Below, piece by piece: positions 34,637 through 60,141 of a DNA stretch of 64,000 nucleotides. A program made the translations under genes and the position numbers. How positions within the stretch are numbered: position 1 is the first letter of the stretch; every line of letters begins with the position of its first letter. This stretch comes from Mumia sp. Pv4-285 (GTDB lineage Bacteria > Actinomycetota > Actinomycetes > Propionibacteriales > Nocardioidaceae). The stretch is from the NCBI RefSeq assembly GCF_041320275.1, contig NZ_CP162023.1, positions 2,914,001 through 2,978,000 of the forward strand, given 5' to 3'. The notes below the pieces were generated by a model, which was not told the DNA's origin, did not search any database, and worked only from the letters and a program-made list of their open reading frames with translations.

Positions 34637-34668
34637 GCGTTCTCCGTCCCGGGTGGATTGGCGGCTAG

Positions 34669-34682
34669 AATATACGATATTA
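34669..34682 (-). promoter_or_regulatory. AT-rich operator before the importer operon
   Basis: On the minus strand the core reads ATATCGTATATT, identical to 4959-4970. It lies 33 nt before the solute-binding protein ATG, and its TATATT could serve as the -10 element. It also overlaps the TAA stop codon of the upstream gene. Repression at the -10 element is inferred from position. Confidence 0.6.
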
Positions 34683-39019: not shown

Positions 39020-39691
39020 ATGAACCGGTCCGCCGTGGTAGCGAGAGCGCTTGCGCGTACGACTGCCGAGCTGCTCGTCACCGGCGGTGTCGTCGTCCTG
39101 CTCTTCGCCGCGTACGTGGTCGTCTGGAGCGACGTGCAGACCGCCGCAGCCCAGGTCGAGCTGCGCGAGGACTTCGAGAGCCAGACCCAGTCGGCTGTCA
39201 CCCCGTCCCCCGGCGCCGACGCCACCCCGACGCCCGTGACGGCGCCACCCGGAGACGCGATGGCGGTCATGCGCATCCCTCGGCTCGGTGACGACTGGTC
39301 GTGGGTCGTCGTCGAGGGCGTGTCCGACGAGCAGCTCAACCGCGGCCCCGGGCACTTCCCCGAGACGGCGCTCCCCGGCCAGCTGGGCAACTTCGCCGTC
39401 GCTGGGCACCGCGCGACCCACGGCGAACCGTTCGCGCACCTCGATCGGATGCAGCCGGGCGACGAGATCGTCGTCGGGTCGGTCGGCGTGACGTACACCT
39501 ACGTCGTCGACACGACCGAGATCGTCACCCCCTCGGACGTCGACGTGCTGCTCCCGGTGCCCGGCAAGCCCGACAAGCAGTCGCGCAAGGCGCGCATCAC
39601 GCTCGTGACCTGCAACCCGCGCTGGGGTTCGAGCGAGCGGCTCATCGTCCACGGTCACCTGACCGAGACAGTCATCGGTTCGGAGGTCTGA
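39020..39691 (+). CDS. Class E-like sortase
   Basis: This 223-residue membrane-bound transpeptidase attaches surface proteins to the cell wall. An N-terminal helix (LLVTGGVVVLLFAAYVVVW) precedes a short linker and the sortase barrel. The catalytic residues are visible: His130 in AGHRATHGEPF, Cys198 in TLVTCNPRWG and Arg207 in SSERL. ATG 39020 has GAGAGG 6 nt upstream. Class E enzymes usually prefer LAxTG, while the two surface proteins here carry LPKTGG, so the pairing needs checking. It is divergent from the WxL-like gene and followed by a small membrane protein. Confidence 0.92.
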   Translation: MNRSAVVARALARTTAELLVTGGVVVLLFAAYVVVWSDVQTAAAQVELREDFESQTQSAVTPSPGADATPTPVTAPPGDAMAVMRIPRLGDDWSWVVVEGVSDEQLNRGPGHFPETALPGQLGNFAVAGHRATHGEPFAHLDRMQPGDEIVVGSVGVTYTYVVDTTEIVTPSDVDVLLPVPGKPDKQSRKARITLVTCNPRWGSSERLIVHGHLTETVIGSEV

Positions 39692-40079: not shown

Positions 40080-40826
40080 TCAGTGGTCGCGCAGCAGCGA
40101 CCCGAAGCCGTGGACCTTCTCGTCGATGCCGTTGTCGCGCAGCGCCATCCACCAGGTGGCAGCGTTGATCGCGATCACGGGCTTGCCGAGCCACCGCTCC
40201 GCCTCGTCGGCCAGCTCGGTCATGCACAGGTTGGTGCCGCACTGGACGATCGCGTCGACGTCGGGGCCGTCGACCTCGATGATGGCCTCACGCAGCGTCT
40301 GCTCGCTGACATGGGCGATCGCGACCGCGCTCTCGCAGCTGAGCCCCTTGATTTTCTCGACGTCGAAGCCGAGCTCGGTGAAGAACTTGCGGACGTTCTC
40401 GTCGCCGATCGGGGTGTAGGGCGTGACGATGCCGATCTTCTTGGCACCGAAGAGCTGGAGGGCGCGCTCGCACGCCTCTGCCCCGGTGGCGACGCCGAGG
40501 CCGCCGGAGAGGTCCTTGATCTGCTGGACGAACTGACGGTTGCCTTCGACACCGTCCCAGAAGGTCTCGGCACTCATGCCCATGACCATGTAGTCGGGTT
40601 CCATCGTCATGATGCCCTCGACGCAGTCGGCCATCGCGTCGCGGATCTGCACCAGCAGGTTCTGCATGCCCTCGTCGTCGGCGATGCGGCCGTCGCGGAT
40701 CAGGATGCGGCCGTAGTGCGAGGTGACGCCGGGAACCCGCATCATGTCGAACTCGGGCTGGACGATCGTGTTGGTGCTCGGGGCGATCACGCCGAACTTG
40801 CGGCGGTAGCCGAGGCGGTCGGTCAT
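40080..40826 (-). CDS. Maleate isomerase / arylmalonate decarboxylase family protein
   Basis: This 248-residue protein belongs to the Asp/Glu racemase-like superfamily, closest in pattern to maleate cis-trans isomerases. It has GVIAPSTNTIVQPEFDMM at the N-terminus and ATGAEACERALQLFGAKKIGIVTPYTP in the middle. The second catalytic cysteine is in IVQCGTNLCMTELADEAE, followed by PVIAINAATWWMALR. At the first cysteine position (around residue 80) I see MGMSAETFW without Cys. Maleate isomerase converts maleate to fumarate; the missing Cys suggests a different reaction or an altered substrate. Its ATG overlaps the membrane protein stop codon. It ends the operon. Confidence 0.82.
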   Translation of the reverse strand: MTDRLGYRRKFGVIAPSTNTIVQPEFDMMRVPGVTSHYGRILIRDGRIADDEGMQNLLVQIRDAMADCVEGIMTMEPDYMVMGMSAETFWDGVEGNRQFVQQIKDLSGGLGVATGAEACERALQLFGAKKIGIVTPYTPIGDENVRKFFTELGFDVEKIKGLSCESAVAIAHVSEQTLREAIIEVDGPDVDAIVQCGTNLCMTELADEAERWLGKPVIAINAATWWMALRDNGIDEKVHGFGSLLRDH

Positions 40827-41500
40827 GAGAGGGAGGCTCCTTCGGGGACGGAGGGTCGCTCGGCGCGCGGAAGGCGTCCGCGGAGGCGGAGCGCACCGAT
40901 GAGGAAGCAGAGCTGGACGCCGGTGTTCGTGAGCTGCTCCGCCCACTGCAGCGCCTCGGTCTGGTTCGGACGTGCAGCGAGCGGCGGGAGGACGAGCGTG
41001 CCGACGAGGTAGACGATGAAGAGCCAACGGCCGAGCTGGTCGCCGTGGCGCGCGGCGAGAGCCGAGGCCATCGCCCCGACCGCGACCGCCGCGAGGGCGG
41101 CGATCGCCAGCATGGGCGTCAGGTTGCGTGCGGCGCCCGAGATGCAGGCGCCGACGAACGGCACGAGGGCGAACGGCATCCACGAGACGACCTTGCCGAC
41201 GTACACGCTCGCCAGTGCCCACGCGAGTGCGGAGAACCCGATAGCGAGGCAGGGGAACAGCATCTGCTCGAGGAACGGGATCTCGACGCACGGCCCGGCC
41301 ACCAGCAGCTTCCAGACCGCCTTGCCGAGGCCGCCCAGCATGACGACGACGCCGCCGAAGAGCGCACCGACGCGCACGGCAGGCAGTGCCTTGCCCAGCG
41401 CGTTGGCGAGGACGACCAGACCGGTGCCAGCGAGGAGCACGGGGACGAAGTCCTCGAGGGCCAGCGCGAGACCGTACTCGGTGCAGGGATCGATGGCCAT
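40823..41500 (-). CDS. Integral membrane protein, unknown function
   Basis: This 225-residue protein has about six to seven hydrophobic helices with small loops, three early cysteines (PCTEY, GPCVEIP, FPCLAI) and few charges. I recognise no family. The ATG shares one base with the SDR stop codon (TGATG), and the stop overlaps the maleate-isomerase-family ATG. Its position inside an operon with a Rieske oxygenase suggests uptake of a hydrophobic substrate, or electron supply; this is context only. Confidence 0.75.
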   Translation of the reverse strand: MAIDPCTEYGLALALEDFVPVLLAGTGLVVLANALGKALPAVRVGALFGGVVVMLGGLGKAVWKLLVAGPCVEIPFLEQMLFPCLAIGFSALAWALASVYVGKVVSWMPFALVPFVGACISGAARNLTPMLAIAALAAVAVGAMASALAARHGDQLGRWLFIVYLVGTLVLPPLAARPNQTEALQWAEQLTNTGVQLCFLIGALRLRGRLPRAERPSVPEGASLS

Positions 41501-42339
41501 CAGACGACCGCCTTCTCAGGAGTGGGCGCGAAGATGTCGCGCGACCGGAAGCTCGCGGTGAGGAACCGCCCCATCGCCTTCGACCGGGTCAGCCACGCCA
41601 CCTTGGCACCGTGCTTGCGGGCGCCGAGGATCCCGTCGGCCAGCCACGGGGTGACCGTCTCGACCCGGTCACCCAGGATGTTGAAGATCTTGCGGGCACG
41701 CTCGAACGCCTCCGGCTGCCCGTCGTAGTCGTCGAGCAGCAGGTCGGTCGCGACGATGCCCGGAGACAGGAAGCCGATCTTGACGGGCGTCCCCTTCGTC
41801 TCCTTCACCAGTGAGGCCGTCAGATAGCTGACACCGCGCTTGGTCGTGCCGTACGTCGTCATGCCGGGCTGCATCTGACCGCCGGAGCCGAAGCCCTCCA
41901 TGTTCCAGATCCAGCCGCCGCCGGCCTGCGAGCCCATCACGTCGAGCGCGACGGCGCAGCCGTTGACCACGCCCAGCACGTTCGTACGGACCACGGCGTC
42001 GACCACGTCGGCCGGCACCTCGGTCAGCGGGCGACGCGGGGCCGACATGCCGGCGTTGTTGATCCAGACGTCGACCCGGCCGAACCGCGCGATCGCGAGG
42101 TCGCGCAGGGCGACGAGCGAGTCGCGGTCGGTGACGTCGGCGACCTGGCCGGCGACGCTGCCGCCCGGGGCGCTCGCGGAGAGGTCGGCGACCGCCGCCT
42201 CCACGCTCGCGCCCGACCGGCCGCAGACGACGACGCGGCACCCGCGGGCCAGGAGCTCCCGGGCGAGCCCGAGGCCGATCCCCCGGGTCCCTCCGGTCAC
42301 GACGACGACCCTGCCCTCGCTCCCAGGTGGCTCGCTCAC
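41500..42339 (-). CDS. Short-chain dehydrogenase/reductase
   Basis: This 279-residue classical SDR has the cofactor motif TGGTRGIGLGLA, the NNAGMS segment and the catalytic YGTTK (YxxxK). A C-terminal extension ends the protein. Basic residues after the glycine motif (CGRSG) suggest NADP. It oxidises or reduces a ketone/alcohol or C=C. The start overlaps the stop codon of the 42336 gene by 4 bp. In a tetrapyrrole setting it could reduce the formyl or C13-keto group, but this is a guess. Confidence 0.9.
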   Translation of the reverse strand: MSEPPGSEGRVVVVTGGTRGIGLGLARELLARGCRVVVCGRSGASVEAAVADLSASAPGGSVAGQVADVTDRDSLVALRDLAIARFGRVDVWINNAGMSAPRRPLTEVPADVVDAVVRTNVLGVVNGCAVALDVMGSQAGGGWIWNMEGFGSGGQMQPGMTTYGTTKRGVSYLTASLVKETKGTPVKIGFLSPGIVATDLLLDDYDGQPEAFERARKIFNILGDRVETVTPWLADGILGARKHGAKVAWLTRSKAMGRFLTASFRSRDIFAPTPEKAVV

Positions 42340-43334
42340 GCGCTCGGCTCCCAGGTCAGGAGACCGTGCACGAAGTGGGTCGTACGCTCGCCGCTGAGCA
42401 GCTGCCAGACGACGGCGAGATCGCGCGTCTGGGGATCCAGCAGGACCTCGCGTCCCCGGATCTTCTCGACCCCGCGCGCGTCACGGCCCATCAGGTGCTG
42501 CGTGGTGAACAGCGCCCGCCCGTAGGAGATGGCGTTGCCGAAGACGTCGGGACCGTCGTACTGGACGCGGGCGCCGTCGCGGTAGCGCTCGAGCTCGTAC
42601 GACCGCGTCAGGGCGCCGTCCCAGGTGATCGACTGCTTGGCGCGCAGCAACGACAGGGGCTCGTGGTCGATCCGGACCTCGGTCTGGCCGACGGTCGTCT
42701 GAGTCTCGGCATCCTCGACGGAGAGGGTGCCGGTCCAGGCACCGGTCTCCTTGGTCGGCAGGACCTGCGGGATGGAGCCGCGGCGGGTCTCCCCGGCGAT
42801 CCAGTCGTCGACGAACGCCTGCGTCTCCGGGTTGGTCTCGTGGTCGAACGTGCGCTTGTAGACGCCGTTGAAGACCGCGCAGACCGCCCAGCCGTCGTGG
42901 AGCACCGAGGAGTAGACCTGCGTCACGCCGTCCGGCAGCACCTGGTTCCAGGTGCGGAGGTCGGCCTGCCAGCCGGGCGAGTAGTAGTTGGCCTCGACGA
43001 AGTAGCCGTACGGCTGCCCGGTGCCGTAGAAGTCCGGGCCGCAGTAGACGCGGTTCTGGTCGGAGTCGACGATGCCGAAGTCGAAGTTCGCACCGAGCTC
43101 GAAGCGGTTGCGGAGGGGACCGCTGCCCTCGAGGCTGGTGCGCATCCAGTAGCGGGACACCCCGTCCTCGACGACGCTGGCGCGCACGACGTGCTCGTAG
43201 CCGACGTGGTTGCCCTCGGCGTCGAAGAGCGACGGGCGGCCGTGCCACTCCCCCTCGATGCGCTGCTGCCATTCACTCGACGGCACAGCGCTGGTCGTGT
43301 CCTCGCCGGTCTGCGGCTCGGTGGTCGCGGTCAC
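42336..43334 (-). CDS. Beta-rich (lipocalin-like) protein, unknown function
   Basis: This 332-residue protein is rich in aromatic and polar beta strands. It opens with a W-x-G-style segment, WQQRIEGEWHGRPSLFD, and GPDFYGTGQPYGYFVEANYYSPGW lies in the middle. A repeat of similar spacing follows from about residue 195 (GAWTGTLSVEDAETQ). The pattern recalls double lipocalin or DUF3598-type barrels, some of which bind bilins or other pigments. I cannot confirm the family. There is no signal peptide. It overlaps both neighbours by 4 bp, and so is made with the Rieske oxygenase and RCCR-like proteins. A pigment-carrier or lyase role is plausible. Confidence 0.65.
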   Translation of the reverse strand: MTATTEPQTGEDTTSAVPSSEWQQRIEGEWHGRPSLFDAEGNHVGYEHVVRASVVEDGVSRYWMRTSLEGSGPLRNRFELGANFDFGIVDSDQNRVYCGPDFYGTGQPYGYFVEANYYSPGWQADLRTWNQVLPDGVTQVYSSVLHDGWAVCAVFNGVYKRTFDHETNPETQAFVDDWIAGETRRGSIPQVLPTKETGAWTGTLSVEDAETQTTVGQTEVRIDHEPLSLLRAKQSITWDGALTRSYELERYRDGARVQYDGPDVFGNAISYGRALFTTQHLMGRDARGVEKIRGREVLLDPQTRDLAVVWQLLSGERTTHFVHGLLTWEPSA

Positions 43335-44110
43335 TTCTTCACCTCGTTGTCGAGCAGCTGGACACGGACGTCCTCGGCGGCGTCGTCGCCGATCAGGCGG
43401 GCGACCTGCGCCCAGACCTTGTCGACGTCGGGGCTGAAGATGTTGGCTCGGTTGCGGGCGTCACGTGCCGGCAGGTCGGTGTCGGCCACGTCCGCCAGCA
43501 CGGCCTCGGGCACCGGCGAGTCGAGCAGCCCGAACCAGTGCTCGAGGTAGGTCGTGACGGCGGTCTCGATCGACACGAACGCGTCGGCGTCGGCGCGGTG
43601 CACGAGCATCCACGGCGACATGACGGCGTTCTGGCGAGGACCGATCGCGGCCTTGGTCAGGCCCGACCACGTCTCGACCTCCTCGTACGTCTCGGTGAGC
43701 GGGTCGTGCGCCCAGTCGAGGTACGTCAGGTGGGTGCCGAGGTCGGCCCGCGGGATCAGGTCGAGGTGGAAGGCGTACGAGCCCTGGCCCTGGACCGAGT
43801 CGAGCGTGAAGTGCGGGATCGGCAGCCCGTCGCGCGTGAACGCGAAGACCATGTGGCTGTCGAGGCCGATCATCTCCACGGCCAAGCCCACGTAGACGAG
43901 CTTGGCGACGGGCTCCGCGTCGTCGGCCGCGACGAAGACGCGGACCTCGCCGACCGGCGCCGGCGTCATCGGCGAGGTGAGCGTACGGAACGAACCGCCG
44001 TCGTCACCGTTCACCTCGAGCAGACCGCGCTCGGCGACGATGCGCTCCCACGTGCGGTGGCACAGCCCGCTGGGCAGGCTCACGGTGGCTTCGGACTCTG
44101 TCGTGCTCAT
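43331..44110 (-). CDS. RCCR/bilin-reductase-like protein (2 of 3)
   Basis: This 259-residue protein is the most divergent of three related ones. It shares PIPHFTLDSV (97-106) and FHLDLIPRADLGTHLTYLDW (114-133). The D-L-x-P-R-x-D-L run resembles a segment I recall from plant red chlorophyll catabolite reductase. A later WMLVHRADADAF aligns with the serine-proline block of the other copies. I chose ATG 44110, overlapping the Rieske stop codon; earlier in-frame codons lie inside the Rieske gene. Adjacency to the oxygenase suggests it takes the oxygenase product. The family assignment needs a structure or profile search. Confidence 0.6.
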   Translation of the reverse strand: MSTTESEATVSLPSGLCHRTWERIVAERGLLEVNGDDGGSFRTLTSPMTPAPVGEVRVFVAADDAEPVAKLVYVGLAVEMIGLDSHMVFAFTRDGLPIPHFTLDSVQGQGSYAFHLDLIPRADLGTHLTYLDWAHDPLTETYEEVETWSGLTKAAIGPRQNAVMSPWMLVHRADADAFVSIETAVTTYLEHWFGLLDSPVPEAVLADVADTDLPARDARNRANIFSPDVDKVWAQVARLIGDDAAEDVRVQLLDNEVKK

Positions 44111-45330
44111 GCGCGCACGCCCTCCTCGCGGGGTGTGTCGGTGGTGTCGGTGCGGGGGACGTCGCCGCGCTCCTCGCGCTCGGTGCGCTTGCCCAGGAGC
44201 TCCTTGCTGCGGACCTCCTTGAAGTTCCACGCCGAGGCCAGCTCCGGGACTTCCTTGCGGATGGGCGACGGGATCACCCGAGCCTCGACGCGCGCCGGGC
44301 CCTCGCCGACGATCGTGTTGCCCTCGACCGACCAGCCCTTGTCGATGAGCTCCTGGCGGCGACGCCGGTAGAGCACCGCGTTGTAGTCGCTCTTCACGTG
44401 CAGCTCGGCCGACAGGTCGAACGGCAGGAGCTCGGGACGGACGCCGTTGACGACGGCCTCGTCCTCGTACAGCACCTTGAACACGCGGCGCCGAGCATCA
44501 CGGTCGGCCCACTTGCCCTTGAAGAACGTCCGCAGCGCGACGAACTTGACCAGCGTGGTCTCCTCGTCGATCGGGATGTTGACGTCGAAGATCTTCAGCT
44601 CGCCCATCGGCGTCTTGATGTCGAGCAGGATCATGTTGGGCAGCCACCACGTGGTGGAGACCGGCACCTGCGGACGCTTCGTCAGGTCCTTCGTCTTGTT
44701 GGGGTTGAGGAGACCCCAGATGCCCTTGGAGTTCGGCGGGTTGAGCTTCACCGACACCTTGCAGTGCCACGGCGACTCCTCCACCTCGAACTCGGGGACC
44801 TCCGGCTTCTCCTTGTTGCCGAAGACTCCGCCGTGCACGAACGGCGTGTGTGCGACGTCGACGCCGTTCTCGAGGATCCGCTCGTAGTTGGACTTCCACA
44901 GGAAGCTGCCGGTCACGGCGCGGTACTTGTCGGTGTCGTCGATGTCGGACCAGTCGGGGATCGGGATCCGCTCGGACTCGGGGAGGTCACCCATGAAGAT
45001 CCAGATGAAGCGGTACTTCTCCTGGACCGGGTAGGAGTCGATCCGCGCCTTGCGGGGGATTCCCTTGTCGGGGTGCGCGGGGATCTTGCGGACCGAGCCG
45101 TCGGGCTCGTACTCCCAGCCGTGGTAGGGACAGACGATGCAGTCGTCCTTGATCTCGCCGCTGGACAGCGCGGCACCGCGGTGGACGCACAGGTCCGACA
45201 TCGCGACGACCGACTTGTCGCTGTTCTTGCGGTAGATGACGAGCTGCTGTCCGAGCAGCTTCACCTTCTTGGGCTCGCCTACGACGAGGTCCTCGCTGAA
45301 CTCGACGGCGTACCAGAAGTTCTTGAACAT
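44107..45330 (-). CDS. Rieske non-heme iron oxygenase (PaO/VanA-type)
   Basis: This 407-residue oxygenase has the [2Fe-2S] motif Cys48-x-His50...Cys67-x-x-His70 (CVHRG...CPYHGW) and a mononuclear iron motif N155-x-x-D158-x-x-H161-x4-H166 (NGVDVAHTPFVH). The overall pattern fits stand-alone terminal oxygenases such as vanillate demethylase and pheophorbide a oxygenase. There is no reductase or ferredoxin gene in the operon, so electrons must come from elsewhere. The ATG lies 12 bp after the hydrolase stop codon. Flanking RCCR-like genes favour a tetrapyrrole ring-opening role, but O-demethylation or hydroxylation of an aromatic or steroid would give the same motifs. Confidence 0.92.
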   Translation of the reverse strand: MFKNFWYAVEFSEDLVVGEPKKVKLLGQQLVIYRKNSDKSVVAMSDLCVHRGAALSSGEIKDDCIVCPYHGWEYEPDGSVRKIPAHPDKGIPRKARIDSYPVQEKYRFIWIFMGDLPESERIPIPDWSDIDDTDKYRAVTGSFLWKSNYERILENGVDVAHTPFVHGGVFGNKEKPEVPEFEVEESPWHCKVSVKLNPPNSKGIWGLLNPNKTKDLTKRPQVPVSTTWWLPNMILLDIKTPMGELKIFDVNIPIDEETTLVKFVALRTFFKGKWADRDARRRVFKVLYEDEAVVNGVRPELLPFDLSAELHVKSDYNAVLYRRRRQELIDKGWSVEGNTIVGEGPARVEARVIPSPIRKEVPELASAWNFKEVRSKELLGKRTEREERGDVPRTDTTDTPREEGVRA

Positions 45331-45342
45331 CGCGTGGTCTCC

Positions 45343-46359
45343 TCACTCGCGTCGCCGGGCGGCGGCGATCTCGGGGCGGGGCTGCTCAGCGAGCAGCTCC
45401 AAGGCGTCCTTGGCTGCGGCTTCGCCGCGCACGTGCGCGGCGAAGAAGGTGGTGACGGTGGTGGCGAGCGCGTCGCGCTGGGCCTCGGCGTCACCGGTGG
45501 TCGCGCTCTCGAGGAAGCCCCGTGCCGTGCTGGCGTCCTCGGGGTGGGCCGCCAGCATGTGCGTCGCCGCGTCGAGGTGGACCAGCCACGCCTCGGTCGT
45601 CGACGGCACTGCCTGGGCCCAGGTCGCCGTGACCGGGTCGCGGTCGGTGGCGGCCGGGTCCTCGCCGTACCGGACGGCGCTGGCGGCGACGACACCGTCT
45701 GCGGTGCCGGCCAGGAGCATCACCGGCACCTCGACGGGAGCCGGGAGCAGGGTGCTCGGCGGGTGGCCGAGCATCTGCGACGCCATCGTGTGCGCGCCGT
45801 ACGTGGCGACGGCGCGGATCTCGGGGAACCACGCGGGCCGCGCCGACTGGAGCGCGACGGTGCCGCCGGCCGAGTGCCCGAAGAGCGCGACCGCCTCGGT
45901 GTCGACGAGTCCCGCGAGCGGGCCCGTCTCCGCGAGCGCGGCGACGGCTTCCAGGACCGGACGCAGGGCCTGGGTGGTGGGCCGGGACCCGTACGTGTCC
46001 GGGCCGACGGCACCGAGGTCGATGCCGGGAGTGAGCCCGTAGTCGCCCGGACCGTGCTCGCTGGGCGGGAACAGCTCGCCGACCCAGTCGTAGGTGACGG
46101 CGACGAACCCCGCCTCGACCAGGCGCACGGCGAGCCACGCGTAGGCGTCGGCACCGACGTTGATGCCCGACAGCAGCACCGCGACGGGGTACGGACCGCC
46201 GGCGGGGTCGGCCTGGAGGCGACCGCTCATCCGCTCGGCGGTGGTCTGCGCCGGCAGCGCCCGGTAGCGGACCGTCACGTGCGCGGTGTCGTACGGCGCC
46301 TCCGCGCCGGGGACGCGCACGGCGGTGCGTGCTGCACGGACGAGGACAGGGTCGGTCAT
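45343..46359 (-). CDS. Alpha/beta hydrolase, chlorophyllase/DLH-like
   Basis: This 338-residue hydrolase has the nucleophile elbow GHSAGG (Ser163), an acid in LLAGTADG (Asp221) and His267 (DAATHML). The N-terminal portion LLSGINVGADAYAWLAVRLVEAGFVAVTYDW resembles the PAF-acetylhydrolase/chlorophyllase/dienelactone hydrolase superfamily. The nucleophile motif is not diagnostic for chlorophyllase (usually GHSRGG). It overlaps the RCCR-like gene by 4 bp. Removal of phytol or a methyl ester from a chlorophyll derivative would fit the operon, but a general esterase is equally compatible with the sequence alone. Confidence 0.85.
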   Translation of the reverse strand: MTDPVLVRAARTAVRVPGAEAPYDTAHVTVRYRALPAQTTAERMSGRLQADPAGGPYPVAVLLSGINVGADAYAWLAVRLVEAGFVAVTYDWVGELFPPSEHGPGDYGLTPGIDLGAVGPDTYGSRPTTQALRPVLEAVAALAETGPLAGLVDTEAVALFGHSAGGTVALQSARPAWFPEIRAVATYGAHTMASQMLGHPPSTLLPAPVEVPVMLLAGTADGVVAASAVRYGEDPAATDRDPVTATWAQAVPSTTEAWLVHLDAATHMLAAHPEDASTARGFLESATTGDAEAQRDALATTVTTFFAAHVRGEAAAKDALELLAEQPRPEIAAARRRE

Positions 46360-47183
46360 GCTCGGGGGTGCGCCTCGTGCTCGAGCGCCCGCGGGAGCTG
46401 GCGGTCGCCGCCCCAGAGGGCCCGGACGAGACGCTGGGTGGTCGCAGGCCCGAAGTAGCGGTCGCCCATGACGTTCGCCGGATCGCGCTCGGCGATGTTG
46501 CGGCGGATCGCCTCGTCGTCGGCGGCCAGAGCAGCACGGTCGGCGAACGGGACGGCCTCGGCCTCGTCGACCCAGCCGAGCCAGCGGTCGAGGTGCTCCT
46601 CGGCGAGCGTCGTCACGAGCTCGGTCATCTCGTCGGCCGCGGGGGCCATGTAGCAGAACGCGGTCGGCGACAGGCCTGCTCGGACGAACGCCGAACGGCT
46701 GATGAAGGGCTCGAGGAACGCGTTCTCGTTGCGCACCTGCTCCCACTGGGCGTTGACCGGCTCGTAGTAGCGGTCGAACGACTCGGTGTCGGTGACGAGG
46801 TAGCTGCGGGGAACCGAGTCGAGGTAGACCCAGCCCTGCGGGAAGCAGCCCAGCGCCATGCCGAAGTGCGGGACCTTCACCTGCGGGCCGAGCCAGATCG
46901 TCAGGTGCACGTTGCAGAAGCCGGCGGCGGCGTTCTCCATGTGCGAGTGGACCATCCAGTCGATCTCCGGGCCGGCGTAGCCGCGGACGCGGCCCTTGGC
47001 CCCGGTGTCTCCACCGAAGTCTTCGAGGACGTCGGTGGACGGGTCACGCTCGAGCTCGAAGCGGTCGGCGACCTTCTGCTTGAGCCGTTCGACGAGGGCG
47101 AGCCAGGTCGCGAACGTCGCGGTGACGTCCGTCGGTCCCGACTCGTCGAGGTGCTCCTGGACGAACTTCAAGCTCTGGCTCAC
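46356..47183 (-). CDS. RCCR/bilin-reductase-like protein (3 of 3)
   Basis: This 275-residue protein heads the operon. Its blocks are DWMVHSHMEN (75-84), VHLTIWLGPQVKVPHF (92-107), DSVPRSYLVTD (122-132), RYYEPVNAQW (138-147) and SRSAFVRAGLSPTAF (162-176). Their order matches the 25833 protein. It also matches plant red chlorophyll catabolite reductase as I remember it, including the R-x-x-x-SPTA segment. I chose GTG 47183 with GGAG 8 nt upstream; GTG 47201 is possible. The AT-rich site at 47235 lies 52 nt upstream. If the family is right, it would reduce an open-chain tetrapyrrole with electrons from ferredoxin. Confidence 0.62.
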   Translation of the reverse strand: MSQSLKFVQEHLDESGPTDVTATFATWLALVERLKQKVADRFELERDPSTDVLEDFGGDTGAKGRVRGYAGPEIDWMVHSHMENAAAGFCNVHLTIWLGPQVKVPHFGMALGCFPQGWVYLDSVPRSYLVTDTESFDRYYEPVNAQWEQVRNENAFLEPFISRSAFVRAGLSPTAFCYMAPAADEMTELVTTLAEEHLDRWLGWVDEAEAVPFADRAALAADDEAIRRNIAERDPANVMGDRYFGPATTQRLVRALWGGDRQLPRALEHEAHPRA

Positions 47184-47234: not shown

Positions 47235-47247
47235 ATATATGATCTAT
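47235..47247 (-). promoter_or_regulatory. AT-rich operator before the Rieske/RCCR-like operon
   Basis: On the minus strand this reads ATAGATCATATAT, an exact 13-base match to 25805-25817 before the related RCCR-like gene. The 162-bp gap from the aldehyde dehydrogenase stop codon holds this site, a direct repeat GAATCTTGA (47274 and 47331) and GC-rich sequence with no clear terminator. Confidence 0.55.
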
Positions 47248-47345: not shown

Positions 47346-48800
47346 TCAGGAGGGGTACGCCGCGGCGCCGAGCCCCGCACCACCGTCGCGGAACGCCGCC
47401 GGCGCATGCACGACGCAGGTCTGCACGTGCTCGAGCATCCCCTCGTCGCCGTACTCCCTGCCCCAGCCGGAGCGCTTGACGCCACCGAACGGCGCACGGA
47501 GCGAGATGCCGGTGCGGTTGTGCGTGTTGACGAACGTGAAGCCGGCGTCGAGGCGTGTCGACAGCGCGAACGCACGCTCCTCGTCGGCGGACCACACGGA
47601 GGCTCCGAGACCGAGGTCGCCGGCGTTGGCGCGCGCGACGGCGTCGTCGTCGGAGTCGAACGCGAGCACGGGCAGGATCGGCCCGAACTGCTCGGTAGCC
47701 ACCACGGGTGCGTCGTCGGGGACGTCGAGCACCAGGGTCGGCGCGACGAAGTAGCCGCGGTCCAGCGCCGTAGCCGGATCTGCGGTGCCGATGTCGAGCA
47801 CGCGCGCCCCCCGTCCACGGGCGTCCTCAGCGAGCCCACGGACCCGGTCGGCGGACGCGGCACTCACGACCGGCCCCATGGTGACGCCGGGATGCAGAGG
47901 GTCTCCGAGGCGCAGGACGCGGTCGGCTGCCGCGCGCAGCGAGTCGACGACCTCGTCGAGGCGGGTGCGGTGGACGTAGAGGCGCTTGAGCGCCATGCAG
48001 ACCTGGCCGCTGGTGGCGAACGACGCCATCACGAGCCGCTCTGCGACAGCGTCGTCGAGCGCGACGTCCTCGAGGAGGATCGCCGGGTCGTTGCCGCCGA
48101 GCTCCAGGAGCGTCGGCGTGAGCGAGCGCCCGGCGAGGCCGGCGATGGCTCGGCCGGCGACGTCGCCGCCGGTGAACGCCACTCGGTCGACGCCGGGGTG
48201 CCCGACCAGCGCGGTCGCGGTGTCGGCGTCGCCCTGGACCACGTCGACGAGTCCCGCCGGCACCGACTCGGCGACGAGACCGAGAAAGCGTGCGACGGCG
48301 AAGGGCGCGAGCGGGGAGGGCTTGACGACCACGGCGTTGCCGGAGACGAGTGCCGGCCCCACCTTGAGCACCGCAAGGATCACGGGGGCGTTCCACGGCG
48401 TGATCGCGGCGACCACCCCGTACGGACGGTGGCGCAGGAGCAGCCGACCTTGGGCGTCGTCCACCTCCCGGTCGACGAGCAGCGCGGTGGCGCGCTCGGC
48501 GGCCCAGCGCAGCACGGCCACCGCGAACCCCGACTCACCGCGGCAGTCGGTGAGCGGCTTGCCGGTCTCGCGTGCCATCAGCTCGGCGATCGCGTCCAGC
48601 TCCGGCTCGATCCGGTCGGCGGCTGCACGCAGGGCGCCCGCGCGCTCGGCCACCGGAACGGCCGCCCAGGCACGCTGGGCCTGATGAGCACGCTCGACGA
48701 CGGCATCGACCTCGGCGGCGCCGGCGACGGGGCAGGAGCCGACGACCTCGTCGATTCGCGCGGGGTTCTCCCGGCTGATGCCGGTCGCCGTCACGGTCAC
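47346..48800 (-). CDS. Aldehyde dehydrogenase (1 of 2)
   Basis: This 484-residue NAD(P)-dependent aldehyde dehydrogenase has YGVVAAITPWNAPV, FTGG, the catalytic glutamate in LLELGGNDP and the cysteine in SGQVCMA. It ends with APFGGVKRSGWGREYGDEG, typical of betaine- and succinate-semialdehyde-type members. The GTG start at 48800 overlaps the FAD monooxygenase stop codon. It is the last gene of the 55034-47346 operon and would oxidise an aldehyde from monooxygenase or lyase action. Confidence 0.92.
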   Translation of the reverse strand: MTVTATGISRENPARIDEVVGSCPVAGAAEVDAVVERAHQAQRAWAAVPVAERAGALRAAADRIEPELDAIAELMARETGKPLTDCRGESGFAVAVLRWAAERATALLVDREVDDAQGRLLLRHRPYGVVAAITPWNAPVILAVLKVGPALVSGNAVVVKPSPLAPFAVARFLGLVAESVPAGLVDVVQGDADTATALVGHPGVDRVAFTGGDVAGRAIAGLAGRSLTPTLLELGGNDPAILLEDVALDDAVAERLVMASFATSGQVCMALKRLYVHRTRLDEVVDSLRAAADRVLRLGDPLHPGVTMGPVVSAASADRVRGLAEDARGRGARVLDIGTADPATALDRGYFVAPTLVLDVPDDAPVVATEQFGPILPVLAFDSDDDAVARANAGDLGLGASVWSADEERAFALSTRLDAGFTFVNTHNRTGISLRAPFGGVKRSGWGREYGDEGMLEHVQTCVVHAPAAFRDGGAGLGAAAYPS

Positions 48801-49993
48801 GAGCGGGTCCCCGCCCCGGCCTCCAGCGGACGCAGCGAGTCGATCATCGACGTCCGGCGCAGGTACGTCCGCGCCGCGACCGGGTCGGCCGCGAGCGCGC
48901 GGAGCTCGGCGTGGTGCGCGGCCCGGGCCTCCTCGTCGTTCTCGCGCAGCTGCTTCCAGTTGTCGTGCGTCACCGTGCGGACGTACGACAGGGCGACGTC
49001 GCGTCGCGCGGCGAGCACCGTGTCGAGCTCGGCCGTCCCAGCGCGCCCGGCGAGCAGGTCGGCGAGCGCCCGACCGGCGAGGACCGCGTCGTGCAGACCG
49101 CTGTTCATCCCCATCCCGCCGAGCGGGTTGTTGACGTGCGCGGCATCGCCGACGAGCACGACCCGCCCCACGCGGAAGCGGTCGGCGACACGCTGGTGCA
49201 CCCGGTAGAGCGACGCGTGGAGAAGGTCCCACGGACGACCGAGGTCGGCCACGTCGGCGAGCCGCGCCTGGACGCGCTCCGGCGCCGTCTCGACGTCGTC
49301 GGGCGAGTCGGGGTCCGTCGGGAAGAGGATGCGCCAGTGCTCCGGCGTCCGGAGCAGCACGAGCCACTCGTCGGGGTCGTACACGTAGTTGACGTCGGCG
49401 ATCCCGGGCAGCACCGTCGCGAGGTCCTCGTGGGTCGACACCACGAGGAAGCGCTCGGGGTAGGTGATCCCCTCGAACTCCGCACCGATCGACTTGCGGA
49501 CCACGGAGCTCGCGCCGTCCGCGCCGACGACCCAGTCGGCCGTCCACGGGCTGCCGGTCGCAGTGGTGACGCGGACGACGTCGTCGACCTGCTCCACAGC
49601 CGTCACGGGCTGGCCGAAGACGACCTCCACGTCGGCGTACGCCTGGAGGCGCTCAAGCAGGATCGGCGTGAGCTTGCTCTGCTCGCACTGGACGCGGAAC
49701 GGGTACGGGGTGTCGTCCGCCAGCGACCCGAGGTCGAGCTCGGCGATGGGACCGGTCCGGCGGTCGCGGTACTGGAAGCGGGTCGAGACGATCCCGCGCT
49801 CCAGCAGGTCGTCCAGGACGCCGAGCTCGGCCAGCATCTCGAGCGAGGGCGGGTGGTAGGTGCTCGCACGCGACTCCGCGGCGAGGGTCTCCCCCGCCTC
49901 GAGCACGGTGACGGCATGGCCGTCGCGGGCAAGGGTCAGCGCGGTGGTGAGCCCGACGGGGCCCGCACCGGCGACGACGACTCGGGCGCTCAT
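48797..49993 (-). CDS. FAD-dependent aromatic-type monooxygenase
   Basis: This 398-residue class A flavoprotein monooxygenase has the N-terminal VVVAGAGPVGLTTALTLARDG motif, the mid-protein DGASSVVRKSIG and GDAAHVNNPLGGMGMNSGLHDA for FAD and NAD(P)H binding. It resembles 3-hydroxyphenylpropionate and 6-hydroxynicotinate-type hydroxylases. It would hydroxylate an aromatic or heteroaromatic (pyrrole-like) ring. Its ATG overlaps the lyase stop codon by 4 bp. Ring hydroxylation ahead of the aldehyde dehydrogenases is plausible. Confidence 0.92.
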   Translation of the reverse strand: MSARVVVAGAGPVGLTTALTLARDGHAVTVLEAGETLAAESRASTYHPPSLEMLAELGVLDDLLERGIVSTRFQYRDRRTGPIAELDLGSLADDTPYPFRVQCEQSKLTPILLERLQAYADVEVVFGQPVTAVEQVDDVVRVTTATGSPWTADWVVGADGASSVVRKSIGAEFEGITYPERFLVVSTHEDLATVLPGIADVNYVYDPDEWLVLLRTPEHWRILFPTDPDSPDDVETAPERVQARLADVADLGRPWDLLHASLYRVHQRVADRFRVGRVVLVGDAAHVNNPLGGMGMNSGLHDAVLAGRALADLLAGRAGTAELDTVLAARRDVALSYVRTVTHDNWKQLRENDEEARAAHHAELRALAADPVAARTYLRRTSMIDSLRPLEAGAGTRS

Positions 49994-50883
49994 CGTGCGC
50001 TCACCGCCTCTGCATAGCGTTGTTCGAGCGACAGCTGATCGCCGAGGCCGACCAGGTCGGTGAGCTCGTCCCAGCCCATCCGAGGGGTCGAGCCGGCGTG
50101 GCCGTCGCGCATGATCGTGGAGTAGACGTCTCCGACGGCCGCCGCGGCGGCGAGCATCGCGGAGACGGGGTGGATGACGAGCCGGACGCCGAGCGCCGCG
50201 TAGTCGGCGTCGCTCGGGCCGTCGCTCACCGCCCCGCCGGCCTCGGAGCGGTTGGCGAGGAACGGGACGCCGTCGCCGAGGGCGTCGCGCACCCGCGCCA
50301 GCTCGGCGAGGCCGGCTCCTTCGACGAAGACGGCGTCCGCGCCGACCTCGACGAACGCGCGTGCACGCTCGACGACCGAGTCGATGCCCTCGACGGACAG
50401 CGCGTCGGTGCGTGCGACGACCACGAGGTCGGAGCCTGCTTCGACGACGGCGCGAACCCGCGACGCCGCCTCCACCACGTCGACGACGGCCTTGCCGCTC
50501 ATGTGGCCGCACCGCTTGGGTGAGACCTGGTCCTCGAGGTGGAGCCCGGCGATCCCTGCCGCGGCGTAGTCCAGCACCGTACGGCGTGCCTGGAGCGCGT
50601 TGCCGTAGCCGGTGTCGGCGTCGGCCAGCAGCGGCACGCCTCCCAACGACGGCACGACCTGGCGGGCACGGTCGGCGATCTGGCTGCCGTGCACGAAGCC
50701 GAGGTCGGGCAGGCCGAGGCCGACCGCCGACGCGACGGCGCCGGAGAGGCAGGCGGCCTGCGCGCCCGCGCGTACGGCGAGCCGGGCGGTGACGGCGTCG
50801 TAGACACCCGGGAGGTGGACGACGTCGTCACCGGCGAGCAGCGTGCGCAACCTCTGCGTCGGCGACGCCGGTCGTCCCGTCAT
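49990..50883 (-). CDS. PEP mutase/isocitrate lyase superfamily lyase (dimethylmalate lyase-like)
   Basis: This 297-residue TIM-barrel enzyme has the signature Lys123-Arg-Cys-Gly-His127 (PKRCGHMSGK), the metal site LADADTGYG (Asp88, Asp90) and HLEDQ. This matches the 2-methylisocitrate lyase / 2,3-dimethylmalate lyase / oxaloacetate hydrolase group. These cleave alpha-hydroxy dicarboxylates next to the hydroxyl-bearing carbon. 2,3-Dimethylmalate lyase makes propionate and pyruvate in nicotinate catabolism; a dialkylmaleate-derived malate would be an analogous substrate. ATG 50883 overlaps the aldehyde dehydrogenase stop codon. Confidence 0.9.
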   Translation of the reverse strand: MTGRPASPTQRLRTLLAGDDVVHLPGVYDAVTARLAVRAGAQAACLSGAVASAVGLGLPDLGFVHGSQIADRARQVVPSLGGVPLLADADTGYGNALQARRTVLDYAAAGIAGLHLEDQVSPKRCGHMSGKAVVDVVEAASRVRAVVEAGSDLVVVARTDALSVEGIDSVVERARAFVEVGADAVFVEGAGLAELARVRDALGDGVPFLANRSEAGGAVSDGPSDADYAALGVRLVIHPVSAMLAAAAAVGDVYSTIMRDGHAGSTPRMGWDELTDLVGLGDQLSLEQRYAEAVSAR

Positions 50884-52385
50884 CGCCCGTGCAGCGCGAA
50901 GCTGCCCTCGACACCGACGACACGCGCGCCGGTGAAGAAGCGGATCGTCTCCAGCGTGCCCTCGTCGCCCATGCCCGAGATGCCCCACGCCGGGCGCGGT
51001 GTCATCAGGTGGAGGCTCATGATCGACGAGCCGTTGACCTTGACCTCGCCTGCGCGCACGCGGCGCGCGACCGCGAGGGCACGCTCGGTGTCGGTGCCGA
51101 AGACATACCCCTCGAGTCCGTACGGCGTGCCGTTGGCGAGGGCGACCGCCTCGTCGTCGGTGCGGTAGGTGTGGACCGTCGCGACGGGACCGAAGATCTC
51201 GTCGACGGCGAGCTGCGGATCGACGCCCCGGACGAGCGTCGGCGCCAGGAAGGTGCCGTCGCCGTCGGGCAGCGGGGTCGATGCGTACGCCCGTCCGCCG
51301 TCGGCGGCCAGGCGGTCCAGCTCGGCTCGCAGACGTGCGAGGTGGACCGAGTGCACGATCGGGCCCAGGTCGGTCGCCTGGTCGAGCGGGTCGCCCGTGC
51401 GCAGCTCGGCGAGCCGCCCGACGATGCGCTCCAGGACGTCGTCGGCCATGCTCTCCGGCAGCACCAGTCGCCCCAGCGCCCGGCACCACTGACCGTTGAG
51501 GGTGGTCAGCAGGTCGACGGCGGCACGCGCCGCGTCGTCCGCGTCGGCGTCGTCGAGCACCACGAGCGGGTTGTTGCCGCCGAGCTCGAGCTGGAGCGCG
51601 GTGTAGGACATGGCGCACGCCGCGGCGATCGCGGCCCCGCCGACGTGGCCACCGGTGAAGGAGACCGCACGGATCCTCGGGTCGTTCACGAGCGTGCCGC
51701 CGACACCCGGGCCACCCTGCAGGAGCTGGAACACCCCGGGGTGCACACCCGCGTCTGCGAGCACGGAGGCGATGGTCCGGCCGAGCACGGTCGTGGCGTA
51801 CGGCGCGTACTCGCTCGGCTTCAGGATCGTCGGGCACCCGGCGGCGAGCGCGCTGGCGACCTTGTGGGCCGCCATCGGCGCGGGAGCGTTCCACGGGACC
51901 AGGCACAGCGCCGGGCCGAGCGGCAGCCGGTGGACCTCGACGGCATTGCCGGCGGCGCCCTCGACCTCGTCCAGCAGGGCGCCGGAGCGCAGCATCTGGG
52001 CGGCGAGGTGGAACGCGCCGGGCACGATCACGCCGACGACCGCGGTCTGTCGCACCGGGACGCCCGTCGCGAAGGACTCGAGCACGGCGAGCTCGCCGAG
52101 CTGCGGCTCGAGTGCCGCTCCGATCTGGTCGAGGAGATCGGCGCGTGCCTCGGGGTCGAGGCCCGACCAGGTCTCGCCGGCGTGGGCCTCGTCAGCGGCC
52201 GCCAGCGCACGCTCGACCGACGCGGCGTCGCTCGAGGCGGCGGCGGCGAGCGTCTCGCCGCGGAACGGGTCCTCGAGCACGAGGTCGAGCGTCTCGGCGG
52301 GAACCTGTGTCTCCCCCGCCACGATCTGGACGGTCTCCGGCAGCGCCGGGGTCACCGTCAACGCGTCGGTCGAGGTGCTCGTCAT
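50880..52385 (-). CDS. Aldehyde dehydrogenase (2 of 2)
   Basis: This 501-residue aldehyde dehydrogenase differs clearly from the copy at 47346. It has LCLVPWNAPAPMAAHKVASAL, FTGGHVGG, the glutamate in LQLELGGNNP and the cysteine in LNGQWCRALG. An N-terminal extension of about 30 residues precedes the fold. GGAGAAGGC precedes ATG 52385, which overlaps the flavoprotein stop codon by 4 bp. The two dehydrogenases in one operon suggest two aldehyde-forming steps or two substrates. Confidence 0.9.
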   Translation of the reverse strand: MTSTSTDALTVTPALPETVQIVAGETQVPAETLDLVLEDPFRGETLAAAASSDAASVERALAAADEAHAGETWSGLDPEARADLLDQIGAALEPQLGELAVLESFATGVPVRQTAVVGVIVPGAFHLAAQMLRSGALLDEVEGAAGNAVEVHRLPLGPALCLVPWNAPAPMAAHKVASALAAGCPTILKPSEYAPYATTVLGRTIASVLADAGVHPGVFQLLQGGPGVGGTLVNDPRIRAVSFTGGHVGGAAIAAACAMSYTALQLELGGNNPLVVLDDADADDAARAAVDLLTTLNGQWCRALGRLVLPESMADDVLERIVGRLAELRTGDPLDQATDLGPIVHSVHLARLRAELDRLAADGGRAYASTPLPDGDGTFLAPTLVRGVDPQLAVDEIFGPVATVHTYRTDDEAVALANGTPYGLEGYVFGTDTERALAVARRVRAGEVKVNGSSIMSLHLMTPRPAWGISGMGDEGTLETIRFFTGARVVGVEGSFALHGR

Positions 52386-53692
52386 GCCTTCTCCGCCGCT
52401 GCTGCTGCGGCTGCTGCCGCGGCCGGCGTCGTCAGTCCAACCCATGACTCATCATCGACCAGCATCCGAGCGAGGTCGAGCTGCCCCCTCTCGGAGGGGA
52501 ACGCCTGGACGAGACCCATGGCCGTGTCGCGCATCGCGCGCCCGATGACGTTGTCCATCAGGGCGCCCGACGTGCCGCACATCTTCATGGCGATGGTGGC
52601 CACGTCGAACGCGCCGTCGCAGATCGTGCCCTTCGCGAGCTTCCAGCTCTGGACGACCTGCTCCTTCGGGAGGATCGGCACCTCGGCGGCCTCGAGGTCG
52701 GTCTGGCGGCGCAGCCACAGGTGCACGTCGGTCAGGCGCTCCTGCGCTCGCCCGATGAACACCTGGTGCATGGGGCTCGAGGCGATCGGCTTGCCCGTGT
52801 CGGCGAACTTCGCCTTCATCGTCCGCTCGAACGCGTACTCCCAGGCTCCGCGGGCGATGCCCGCGTAGATGGCGGTGATGGCCACCTGGTTGCCGACCCA
52901 CGAGCCGCGCGACATCTGCGTGGCGCGGGCGAATCCGCCGGGCACGACCAGGGCGAGGTCGTCGGGGACGAACGCGCTCTCCATGATCAGACCGTTGTTG
53001 TCGGAGGCGCGCATGCCGAGGCCCTGCCACTGGTGGCGCGGGCGCACGCCCTCCTGGTCGCGGGAGACGAGGAACAGGCTGAGCCCCTCGACCCCGTCGA
53101 TGTCGGCGCGGCGCGCGGTGACGAGGTAGAAGTCGGCGGTGCCGGACAGGCAGCCGAACGACTTCTCGCCGTCGAGCAGCCAGCCACCCTCGGTCCTGGT
53201 CGCCGTGGTCGAGATGAGGACGTTGGCGTTGCTCGCCTTCGCTGACTCGCTCGCGAAGTTCGCGAGGCACTGGTTGTCGCGCCCCATCATGAACAGGACG
53301 CGCTCGGCGAACGTGCGTACCTCGTCGACCTCGTCGTCGGCGTACAGGCCCTCCTCGATCGCTGCCAGCGGCAGGAGTCCTCGCGAGGACGCCGAGCAGT
53401 GGAAGAAGTAGGCGAGGGCGGTCGAGCCGCACACGGTGCCCAGGGCGTAGGTCGTCGCGACGAGGTCGCGCAGACCTCCGCCCAGGCCGCCGAACTCGCG
53501 GGGGACGACCAGACCGAGCAGACCCGCGTCGGCGAGCAGCTTGATGTGGCCCGGGGGGAGCTCGGCGCGCGCGTCGGCGCCGGCGGCGGCGTCACGGATC
53601 GTCGGCAGGATCGACTCGACGCGGGCGGCGCGCTCGCGCTCGTCCGGCGTCAGGTCGGGGAAGAGGTACTCGGCGGTCAGCGTGGCCGACAT
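52382..53692 (-). CDS. Acyl-CoA-dehydrogenase-fold flavoprotein, possible group D monooxygenase
   Basis: This 436-residue flavoprotein has an acyl-CoA dehydrogenase fold: VPREFGGLGGGLRDLVATTYALGTVCGSTA, DGEKSFGCLSGTAD and a GAFDVATIAMKMCGTSGALMDNVIGRAMRD C-terminal region. The catalytic glutamate region typical of the dehydrogenases is not evident. The flavin reductase fusion gene lies 10 bp upstream, so a reduced-flavin-dependent monooxygenase (HpaB/DszC-like group D) is a strong alternative to a dehydrogenase. The C-terminus is a run of nine to ten alanines. It overlaps the aldehyde dehydrogenase by 4 bp. Confidence 0.88.
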   Translation of the reverse strand: MSATLTAEYLFPDLTPDERERAARVESILPTIRDAAAGADARAELPPGHIKLLADAGLLGLVVPREFGGLGGGLRDLVATTYALGTVCGSTALAYFFHCSASSRGLLPLAAIEEGLYADDEVDEVRTFAERVLFMMGRDNQCLANFASESAKASNANVLISTTATRTEGGWLLDGEKSFGCLSGTADFYLVTARRADIDGVEGLSLFLVSRDQEGVRPRHQWQGLGMRASDNNGLIMESAFVPDDLALVVPGGFARATQMSRGSWVGNQVAITAIYAGIARGAWEYAFERTMKAKFADTGKPIASSPMHQVFIGRAQERLTDVHLWLRRQTDLEAAEVPILPKEQVVQSWKLAKGTICDGAFDVATIAMKMCGTSGALMDNVIGRAMRDTAMGLVQAFPSERGQLDLARMLVDDESWVGLTTPAAAAAAAAAAEKA

Positions 53693-53702
53693 GGCGCGGC
53701 TC

Positions 53703-55034: not shown

Positions 55035-55063
55035 GAGACACCTCCTACCTACCGGTTGGAAAG

Positions 55064-55080
55064 AATATACAATATCGACT
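55064..55080 (-). promoter_or_regulatory. AT-rich operator before the flavin reductase fusion / GntR
   Basis: On the minus strand the site reads ATATTGTATATT, one mismatch from the sites at 4959 and 34669. It lies 30 nt before GTG 55034 in the divergent region shared with the GntR/FCD gene, where an autoregulated operator is expected. Confidence 0.6.
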
Positions 55081-60095: not shown

Positions 60096-60102
60096 GGGCA
60101 AA

Positions 60103-60134: not shown

Positions 60135-60141
60135 TACCCCA

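Follow-up and report, generated by a model that had tools for sequence, protein, structure and literature searches.

We analyzed a 64,000-nucleotide stretch of the Mumia sp. Pv4-285 genome (hereafter the window; G000:C1:2914001-2978000 of a 4.65-Mb single-contig genome) and find that it encodes, by sequence for two of them and by structural model for the third, three proteins of the superfamily that unites red chlorophyll catabolite reductase (RCCR) with the ferredoxin-dependent bilin reductases (FDBRs). These proteins, RCCR-B (46356), RCCR-A (25833), and 43331, all lie inside a cluster spanning approximately 24.8-64 kb of the window, in which they are accompanied by a Rieske oxygenase, an importer, and genes for carbon catabolism. 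That the cluster is a catabolic regulon is well supported, and a substrate of the tetrapyrrole type is likely in view of the superfamily, the predicted catalytic residues, and a modeled β-barrel partner. The explanation we favor, with moderate confidence, is that the regulon breaks down a tetrapyrrole pigment from outside the cell, most likely one that is linear or derived from a chlorin (pheophorbide, phyllobilins, or bilins, for example).

Three proteins of the RCCR/bilin reductase superfamily

Genes in the window were predicted from codon-position GC content. Conservation is given as the number of 22 Nocardioidaceae relatives with a homolog (tblastn, E<=1e-5, 40% coverage) or as the number of 80 loci from a broader genome scan described below. 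The genes that carry the argument are the following:

46356..47183, minus strand: RCCR-B, RCC_reductase family, 275 aa, GTG start (PF06405; AtRCCR match)
45343..46320, minus strand: alpha/beta hydrolase of the PETase/DLH/chlorophyllase neighborhood, GHSAGG motif (Pfam, family comparison)
44107..45330, minus strand: Rieske oxygenase, VanA_C type (Pfam, ligands, tree)
43331..44113, minus strand: third RCCR/FDBR-fold protein, start at 44083 or 44113 (AlphaFold2 model, Foldseek, VIA-align, hhalign)
42336..43334, minus strand: DUF3598-like double beta-barrel (model comparison)
41500..42339, minus strand: short-chain dehydrogenase/reductase (SDR) (Pfam)
40823..41500, minus strand: membrane protein (22/22 relatives)
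40080..40826, minus strand: Asp/Glu-racemase superfamily, arylmalonate decarboxylase/maleate isomerase type (PF17645 65.9 bits; 2xed 44 bits)
25833..26654, plus strand: RCCR-A, second RCC_reductase-family protein (PF06405; 22/22 relatives)

RCCR-A and RCCR-B are assigned by sequence. The RCC_reductase profile PF06405 matches RCCR-B at 51.9 bits and RCCR-A at 59.3 bits against a curated cut-off of 24.9, and it matches nothing in 14 control genomes, so that the RCCR likeness proposed in an initial annotation of 40080-47183 stands. Compared directly with the plant enzyme AtRCCR, RCCR-B gives an E value of 3.3e-6 and RCCR-A one of 2.4e-9, and a profile built from 21 bacterial RCCR-A/B-type members retrieves AtRCCR at 7e-23 (84.5 bits, about 230 positions), with the bilin reductase GtPEBB (5.8e-9) and phytochromobilin synthase (5e-4) ranked lower.

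Neither Pfam nor NCBIfam matches the third protein, 43331, at E<=0.1, and its RCCR/FDBR fold was established on a model. The AlphaFold2 model is of high quality (pLDDT 92.8, pTM 0.91), and in a Foldseek search nine AtRCCR chains stand at the top of 303 matches with E<=10 (best E 2.5e-10, TM 0.76). VIA-align places RCCR (Z 21.7-22.1) level with GtPEBB (Z 22.7), bilin reductases overall at Z 18-22.7 with PcyX at 14.3, and coproporphyrinogen oxidases at Z 10.6-16.7; most enzymes of this fold in the table act on tetrapyrroles. Profile comparison of the 43331 and RCCR families with diverse rows agrees (hhalign, 98.5%, E 2.6e-15), while narrow alignments give a weak hhalign match (50%) and a narrow 43331 profile retrieved no RCCR in an hmmsearch of the PDB. 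The initial annotation had proposed a structure search for this protein, and its fold proves to be that of RCCR and the FDBRs and not an unrelated one.

Active-site positions were transferred through the 43331-RCCR and RCCR-AtRCCR/GtPEBB profile alignments, with 43331 numbered from its 44083 start. GtPEBB Asp-99 aligns with AtRCCR Glu154 and Asp-219 with AtRCCR Asp291, two plant residues whose roles we take as given here. In 43331, both positions are aspartate (D95 and D221) in 16/16 diverse and 23/23 close members, and RCCR-A/B keep the counterpart of Asp-219 (D234 in 21/21). The Asp-99/Asp-219 pair is described as essential in GtPEBB (PMC6755814). Because it keeps both FDBR aspartates, 43331 is the likeliest of the three to be a working reductase.

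Operon structure and shared promoter elements

The minus-strand run proceeds in order from RCCR-B through the hydrolase, the Rieske oxygenase, 43331, 42336, the SDR, and 40823 to 40080, and RCCR-A lies on the plus strand 20 kb from this operon. With the starts used here, there are overlaps of 1-4 nt at four of the seven junctions and gaps of 35, 12, and 23 nt at the others; a start of 43331 at 44113 would turn the 23-nt gap into an overlap of 7 nt. All of the genes named for this operon in the initial annotation are present on the minus strand, and the GTG start of RCCR-B at 47183 is the one given there; its SDR agrees with Pfam, and its membrane protein is hydrophobic in sequence with no Pfam match. 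Its description of a fully overlapping operon was too strong for an arrangement that is tight and contains three gaps, and the unit stretches well past the 40080-47183 extent it had been given.

Two sequence elements recur at the promoters of the cluster:

25806..25817, plus strand: TAGATCATATAT element in the divergent promoter of RCCR-A and an ABM-fold gene
47235..47246, minus strand: TAGATCATATAT element upstream of RCCR-B
34667..34680, minus strand: ATATYGTATATTCT site preceding 33254 and the transporter genes
55062..55075, minus strand: ATATYGTATATTCT site preceding the 53703 operon

The 12-bp TAGATCATATAT has exactly two sites in the 4.65-Mb genome, both at RCCR promoters, and its reversed control has 0. 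Among the relatives, ATCATATA precedes RCCR-A in 20/22, RCCR-B in 13/22, and the gene for a GntR-type regulator in 8/22, a few of the ortholog starts being uncertain. For the second element, AATATYGTATATTCT at <=1 mismatch also has two genome sites, upstream of 33254/transporter and of 53703; a laxer pattern (14 nt, 2 mismatches) has an extra site at 4959 inside the 4653 gene, and GAATATAC precedes 53703 in 22/22 relatives. These shared elements suggest joint control of the operons for uptake, RCCR-Rieske, and the lower pathway, with the GntR/FCD protein 55232 as the obvious candidate regulator.

Conservation and distribution

Within the same GTDB family, PF06405 occurs in 23/294 genomes (own included), in exactly two copies each that lie approximately 18-27 kb apart. 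Most genes between 24777 and 63999 are present in 19-22 of the 22 relatives, the exceptions being 34680 (9/22), 35993 (7/22), and a cobalt-type transporter discussed below. A sample of the phylum has PF06405 in 3/396 genomes (own included), and both of the genomes from outside the family, one of them G544, have the order RCCR-Rieske-43331-42336.

The broader scan used the best 80 of 127 confirmed relatives, with locus homologs called at E<=1e-8 and 35% coverage. These loci overlap with the genomes above: at least 9 come from members of the set of 22, and L185 and G544 are one genome. Homologs of the Rieske oxygenase and of 43331 are each found in 73/80 loci, of 42336 in 72/80, of the hydrolase in 67/80, of a carbon-nitrogen hydrolase in 66/80, of the SDR in 62/80, and of 40080 in 45/80. 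The loci are mostly from Actinomycetota, span several phyla, and include many metagenome-assembled genomes, with representatives in Nocardioides, Nocardia, Actinoplanes, Planomonospora, Acidimicrobiia, Anaerolineae, Rhodospirillaceae, and one deltaproteobacterium. The closest named relatives are Mumia strains (L106-L108; RCCR-B 84-88%, Rieske 84-95% identity), and RCCR-B has no match among 72,556 plasmid records.

The Rieske homolog is missing in 7/80 loci (L121, L148, L164, L176, L178, L181, and L183), of which L164 stops 1.3 kb past RCCR and L178 starts 0.5 kb ahead of it. L176 (527-2376) and L181 (9962-10765) hold cyanobacterial RCC_reductase relatives outside a Rieske cluster, with a hydrolase of the 45343 family adjoining RCCR in L176, and their genomes also have 5 and 3 PaO-family matches, respectively. 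L183 contains this hydrolase together with barrel proteins that we read as DUF3598-like. In the Acidimicrobiales locus L161, a DUF3891 protein and others, including one 27% identical to 42336, lie beside RCCR-Rieske (13628-16399).

A VanA-type Rieske oxygenase

The oxygenase 44107 has Rieske and VanA_C domains by Pfam, and its Rieske ligands (C48/H50/C67/H70) and mononuclear iron site (N155-D158-H161-H166) are invariant in 16 aligned cluster members. VanA_C is found in 16/16 cluster Rieskes, and in four non-cyanobacterial genomes (G000, G693, G700, and G720) the only VanA_C match is, judged by coordinates, the cluster Rieske. The C-terminal domain of PaO, PF08417, has 0 matches in the host genome at E<=10 and none in the 16 cluster Rieskes at E<=1. 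In a tree of 16 loci, drawn from 72 full-length cluster Rieskes, together with the window protein and a few reference families, the 17 cluster rows fall into a single group (90/97, recovered in 92% of bootstrap trees), and 7 PaO-family rows separate at 100/99; some branches of the tree are long. The PaO-family rows are 7 of 8 PaO matches (L187 left out), all cyanobacterial with no plant PaO among them. The cluster group is also apart from the KshA-type (3) and HpxD/Ndm-like (5) rows, so that, relative to these few reference families, it stands on its own and not inside a known non-tetrapyrrole clade. We therefore reject a PaO-type Rieske, on the absence of PF08417, the uniform presence of VanA_C, and the tree; of the PaO/VanA-type oxygenase proposed at the outset, the VanA_C part survives.

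The closest PDB relatives of 44107, itself of the VanA_C type, are SxtDIOX/SxtT and NdmA, and its identity to the plasmid matches listed is about 29-33%. These observations would also fit a rival reading, in which the RCCR fold was recruited to some other heterocycle, such as a prodiginine, an alkaloid, or an N-heteroaromatic compound, within an ordinary aromatic catabolic cluster. The catalytic acid that RCCR-A/B are short of would fit such a history, as would an amidase of the NicF/CSHase type that recalls pyridine and creatinine pathways, the weak similarity of 52382 to PigA (49 bits, cut-off 500), and the presence of this fold in subunits of the Ycf2-FtsHi complex, by which not all chains of the fold are tetrapyrrole enzymes. 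We nevertheless consider it unlikely, since three RCCR-superfamily proteins and a DUF3598-type barrel stay together across several phyla, and since most enzymes of the fold act on tetrapyrroles and 43331 retains the Asp pair.

The barrel protein and the question of heme

No Pfam family matches 42336. Its model, with a pLDDT of only 65 and a better C-terminal half, most closely matches DUF3598-type double barrels (Foldseek E 1.3e-8, Z 16.7), and its C-terminal barrel also resembles nitrobindin and CpeS lyase. The protein had first been labeled "lipocalin-like." On this model, we propose that 42336 may be a tetrapyrrole or bilin carrier.

Another reading is that the substrate is the host's own or scavenged heme, with heme oxygenase producing biliverdin and the cluster degrading it for iron, nitrogen, or detoxification, a scheme that overlaps with the pigment catabolism we favor. 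The host has one heme oxygenase, RCCR is related to the bilin reductases, the 42336 barrel resembles the heme protein nitrobindin, and the protein adjoining RCCR-A has the ABM fold, which is also that of IsdG/MhuD. The heme oxygenase, however, is approximately 720 kb distant from the cluster, and the importer and the genes for carbon catabolism point to a growth substrate from outside the cell. Heme as the starting point is, to us, somewhat unlikely, and an external substrate could derive from chlorophyll as well as from heme.

Surrounding genes and a predicted lower pathway

The remainder of the cluster and its flanks comprise the following:

16159..23030: CoA-transferase III, PF04199 cyclase, MmgE/PrpD, amidohydrolase, and IclR (Pfam)
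24777..25466, minus strand: second alpha/beta hydrolase (PF12697; 22/22 relatives)
25463..25780, minus strand: small monooxygenase-like protein of the ABM fold, oriented divergently from RCCR-A (PF03992 27.9 bits, cut-off 23.1; 22/22)
26651..27514, plus strand: NAD-dependent epimerase/reductase-type protein (PF01370; 22/22 relatives)
27680..29571, minus strand: two secreted proteins with C-terminal LPKTG, one of neocarzinostatin fold (PF00960 63.6 bits; 22/22, 32-71% identity)
29630..34636, minus strand: Liv-type ABC importer with fused permeases/ATPase, ATPase, and putative binding protein 33254 (no Pfam match)
39020..39691, plus strand: sortase (PF04203; 22/22 relatives)
47346..55007, minus strand: lower-pathway operon of aldehyde dehydrogenase (ALDH), FAD monooxygenase, PrpB/dimethylmalate-lyase-like, ALDH, acyl-CoA dehydrogenase (ACAD)-type, and flavin reductase-HMGL-like genes (in this order 22, 19, 19, 22, 22, and 22 of 22 relatives)
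55232..55891, plus strand: GntR/FCD regulator (Pfam; 22/22 relatives)
58413..60629, minus strand: carbon-nitrogen hydrolase, true start probably within the frame (PF00795; 22/22 relatives)
61707..63999, minus strand: cupin-like protein (below cut-off), isochorismatase-family amidase of the CSHase/NicF clade, and CoA-transferase III (21, 20, and 21/22, a few of them weak)

The lower-pathway families thus include a PrpB/2,3-dimethylmalate-lyase-like protein, ALDHs, a flavin reductase accompanied by FAD and ACAD-type proteins, CoA-transferase III, the CSHase/NicF-clade amidase, and a carbon-nitrogen hydrolase. This gene set would fit lactam or imide ring opening and the breakdown of methyl-, ethyl-, and propionate-substituted maleates, which would be the expected products of oxidized pyrroles. 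Hematinic acid and dipyrrolic chlorophyll products are reported from plants (PMC7318184). In 53703-55007, the flavin reductase domain is fused to an HMGL-like domain, an unusual arrangement that is matched in 22/22 relatives.

Toward the other end of the window, 7081-16162 holds MaoC, mesaconyl-CoA-hydratase-like, luciferase-like, CoA-transferase, MmgE/PrpD, thiolase, and ACAD genes; the hydratase is found on the side of RCCR-A in 13/22 relatives and the ACAD (>=83%) in 15/22. The 16159-23030 module adjoins RCCR-Rieske in L161 at 51-63% identity and lies beside RCCR-Rieske, minus the amidohydrolase, in L165 and G544, where hydantoinase/oxoprolinase genes join it (A and B in G544, B in L165). 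Between the two RCCR genes, 27680-39691 carries the two LPKTG proteins, a WxLIP-type protein (7/22), a secreted protein with no Pfam match (20/22), and the sortase (22/22), and pigment capture is a possible role for this surface module. The CbiM-PDGLE-CbiQ-CbiO cobalt-type transporter at 55931-58386 was rejected as a part of the system and is probably an insertion: CbiQ is found in 1/22 relatives and PDGLE and CbiM in 2/22 each, and the count of 22/22 for its ATPase 55931 comes solely from weak matches (29-37%) to other ABC genes, except for 89% in G064.

From the families, folds, gene conservation, and shared promoter elements observed here, we infer a substrate, an order of reactions, and a set of catalytic steps. 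Surface-anchored and barrel proteins would capture the pigment with the Liv-type importer, and hydrolases would cleave off ester groups. The Rieske oxygenase could then open or hydroxylate the pigment, and the RCCR-fold proteins would reduce or hold the conjugated bridges, 43331 as the likeliest reductase and RCCR-A/B with altered active sites. Flavin monooxygenases may cleave the product to mono-pyrroles that are oxidized to maleimide-type rings, the imides and amides of which would be opened by the cyclase, carbon-nitrogen hydrolase, and isochorismatase-type enzymes. The resulting alkyl-maleates or fumarates would pass through CoA-transferase, hydratase, and lyase steps into central metabolism. 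If this is how the genes are used, then the VanA-type Rieske, the three RCCR/FDBR-fold proteins, and the maleimide/alkyl-maleate/acyl-CoA lower pathway would make up a dispersed bacterial pathway fully mineralizing chlorophyll-derived (or bilin) tetrapyrroles, a wider proposal that we advance tentatively.

The same RCCR-fold genes might instead serve the biosynthesis of a pigment or cofactor resembling a bilin, given that cyanobacterial FDBRs are biosynthetic and that pre-PcyA clusters are described in heterotrophs (PMC10151467). The ALDHs, CoA-transferases, lyases, amidases, and importer, however, are genes of a degradative type, and the Pfam scans of cluster genes returned neither a heme oxygenase nor a globin, which leaves biosynthesis very improbable.

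Evidence that weighs against a tetrapyrrole substrate

Several observations weigh against catabolism of an external tetrapyrrole. At the GtPEBB Asp-99 position, RCCR-A/B have no acid (Ala in 19/21, Val or Thr in 2/21), so their chemistry is probably altered, which weighs against naming them RCCRs in an enzymatic sense. Nor is the fold itself proof of a tetrapyrrole substrate, since chains of the Ycf2-FtsHi chloroplast motor complex match the fold of 43331 (8xqw_H Z 19.0, 8xks_P Z 18.8). The cluster Rieske is, by its domains and tree, of a non-PaO family, and the cluster genes covered by the Pfam scans include no ferredoxin.

The partner genes add to this. Hydrolase 45343, first annotated as chlorophyllase-like, is an alpha/beta hydrolase by Pfam and scores 13.3 bits against the chlorophyllase profile PF07224, whose cut-off is 26, and we rejected chlorophyllase as its family assignment; within its family, 4/13 members match PF07224 at E<=0.01, the best at 2e-6. 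The adhesin OpcA (Z 14.1) is a further match for the C-terminal barrel of the 42336 model. Maleate isomerases presumably require two catalytic cysteines, and in the alignment of 40080 with 2xed the second is kept and the first is replaced, as it is in four homologs. The 16159-23030 module has close homologs nearby in just 4-9/22 relatives. A Mg-dechelatase homolog was found in 0/44 genomes, a result that is uninformative because the control set was likewise empty. More generally, the tie between cluster and pigment is drawn from the genes. What endures of the tetrapyrrole-degrading system first proposed for this DNA is a catabolic cluster in which RCCR-type proteins, now three, are coupled genetically with a Rieske oxygenase; the PaO type is set aside, and a tetrapyrrole pigment is the probable substrate.

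Relation to known systems

In the literature consulted, in part among the top matches listed, we found no description of an actinobacterial RCCR catabolic cluster; the nearest report places Ca. Schekmanbacteria sequences in an RCCR outgroup (PMC10151467). The cluster, which occurs in bacteria of soil and sea, suggests an unrecognized bacterial route for the breakdown of chlorophyll- or bile-type pigments. The yearly synthesis and degradation of chlorophyll are on a scale of 10^12 kg, and what becomes of its breakdown products once outside the plant is described as largely open (PMC7318184). If our reading is true, the cluster would represent a missing microbial sink for chlorophyll catabolites with an oxygenase lineage that differs from plant PaO. 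Defined and widely conserved, it provides identified genes, hosts that can be cultured, and a pair of sharp promoter elements for the study of microbial tetrapyrrole disposal, and bacterial relatives are now at hand for the study of RCCR and bilin reductase origins.

With the FDBRs (PebA/B, PcyA, HY2, and pre-PcyA), the cluster shares the modeled fold of 43331 and its predicted catalytic Asp pair, whereas the RCCR-A/B sequences are closer to RCCR and no adjacent heme oxygenase or BBAG globin was seen. With the VanA/SxtT/NdmA-type Rieskes, it shares domain architecture and invariant Rieske and mononuclear iron ligands, while the cluster Rieskes form a separate, RCCR-tied group. The DUF3598 proteins BFA1 and Npun_R4044 have the double-barrel fold that a middling model suggests for 42336, but 42336 lacks a Pfam match. 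The predicted lower pathway draws on enzyme families similar to those with which nicotinate-type degradation (NicF, NicE) and dimethylmalate/methylisocitrate lyase systems open amides, process dicarboxylates, and cleave C-C bonds, but 40080 is without one maleate-isomerase cysteine and no pyridine-specific gene was identified in the cluster.

The likeness to the plant PaO/RCCR step lies in a Rieske oxygenase that is genetically coupled with RCC_reductase-family proteins. It differs from that step in its VanA_C oxygenase, in the missing Asp-99/Glu154-type acid of RCCR-A/B, in its extra RCCR-fold protein, and in its carbon-catabolic setting. Because it has neither the PaO domain and clade nor, in RCCR-A/B, that acid, the cluster is not a member of the plant pair but a system that works like it.

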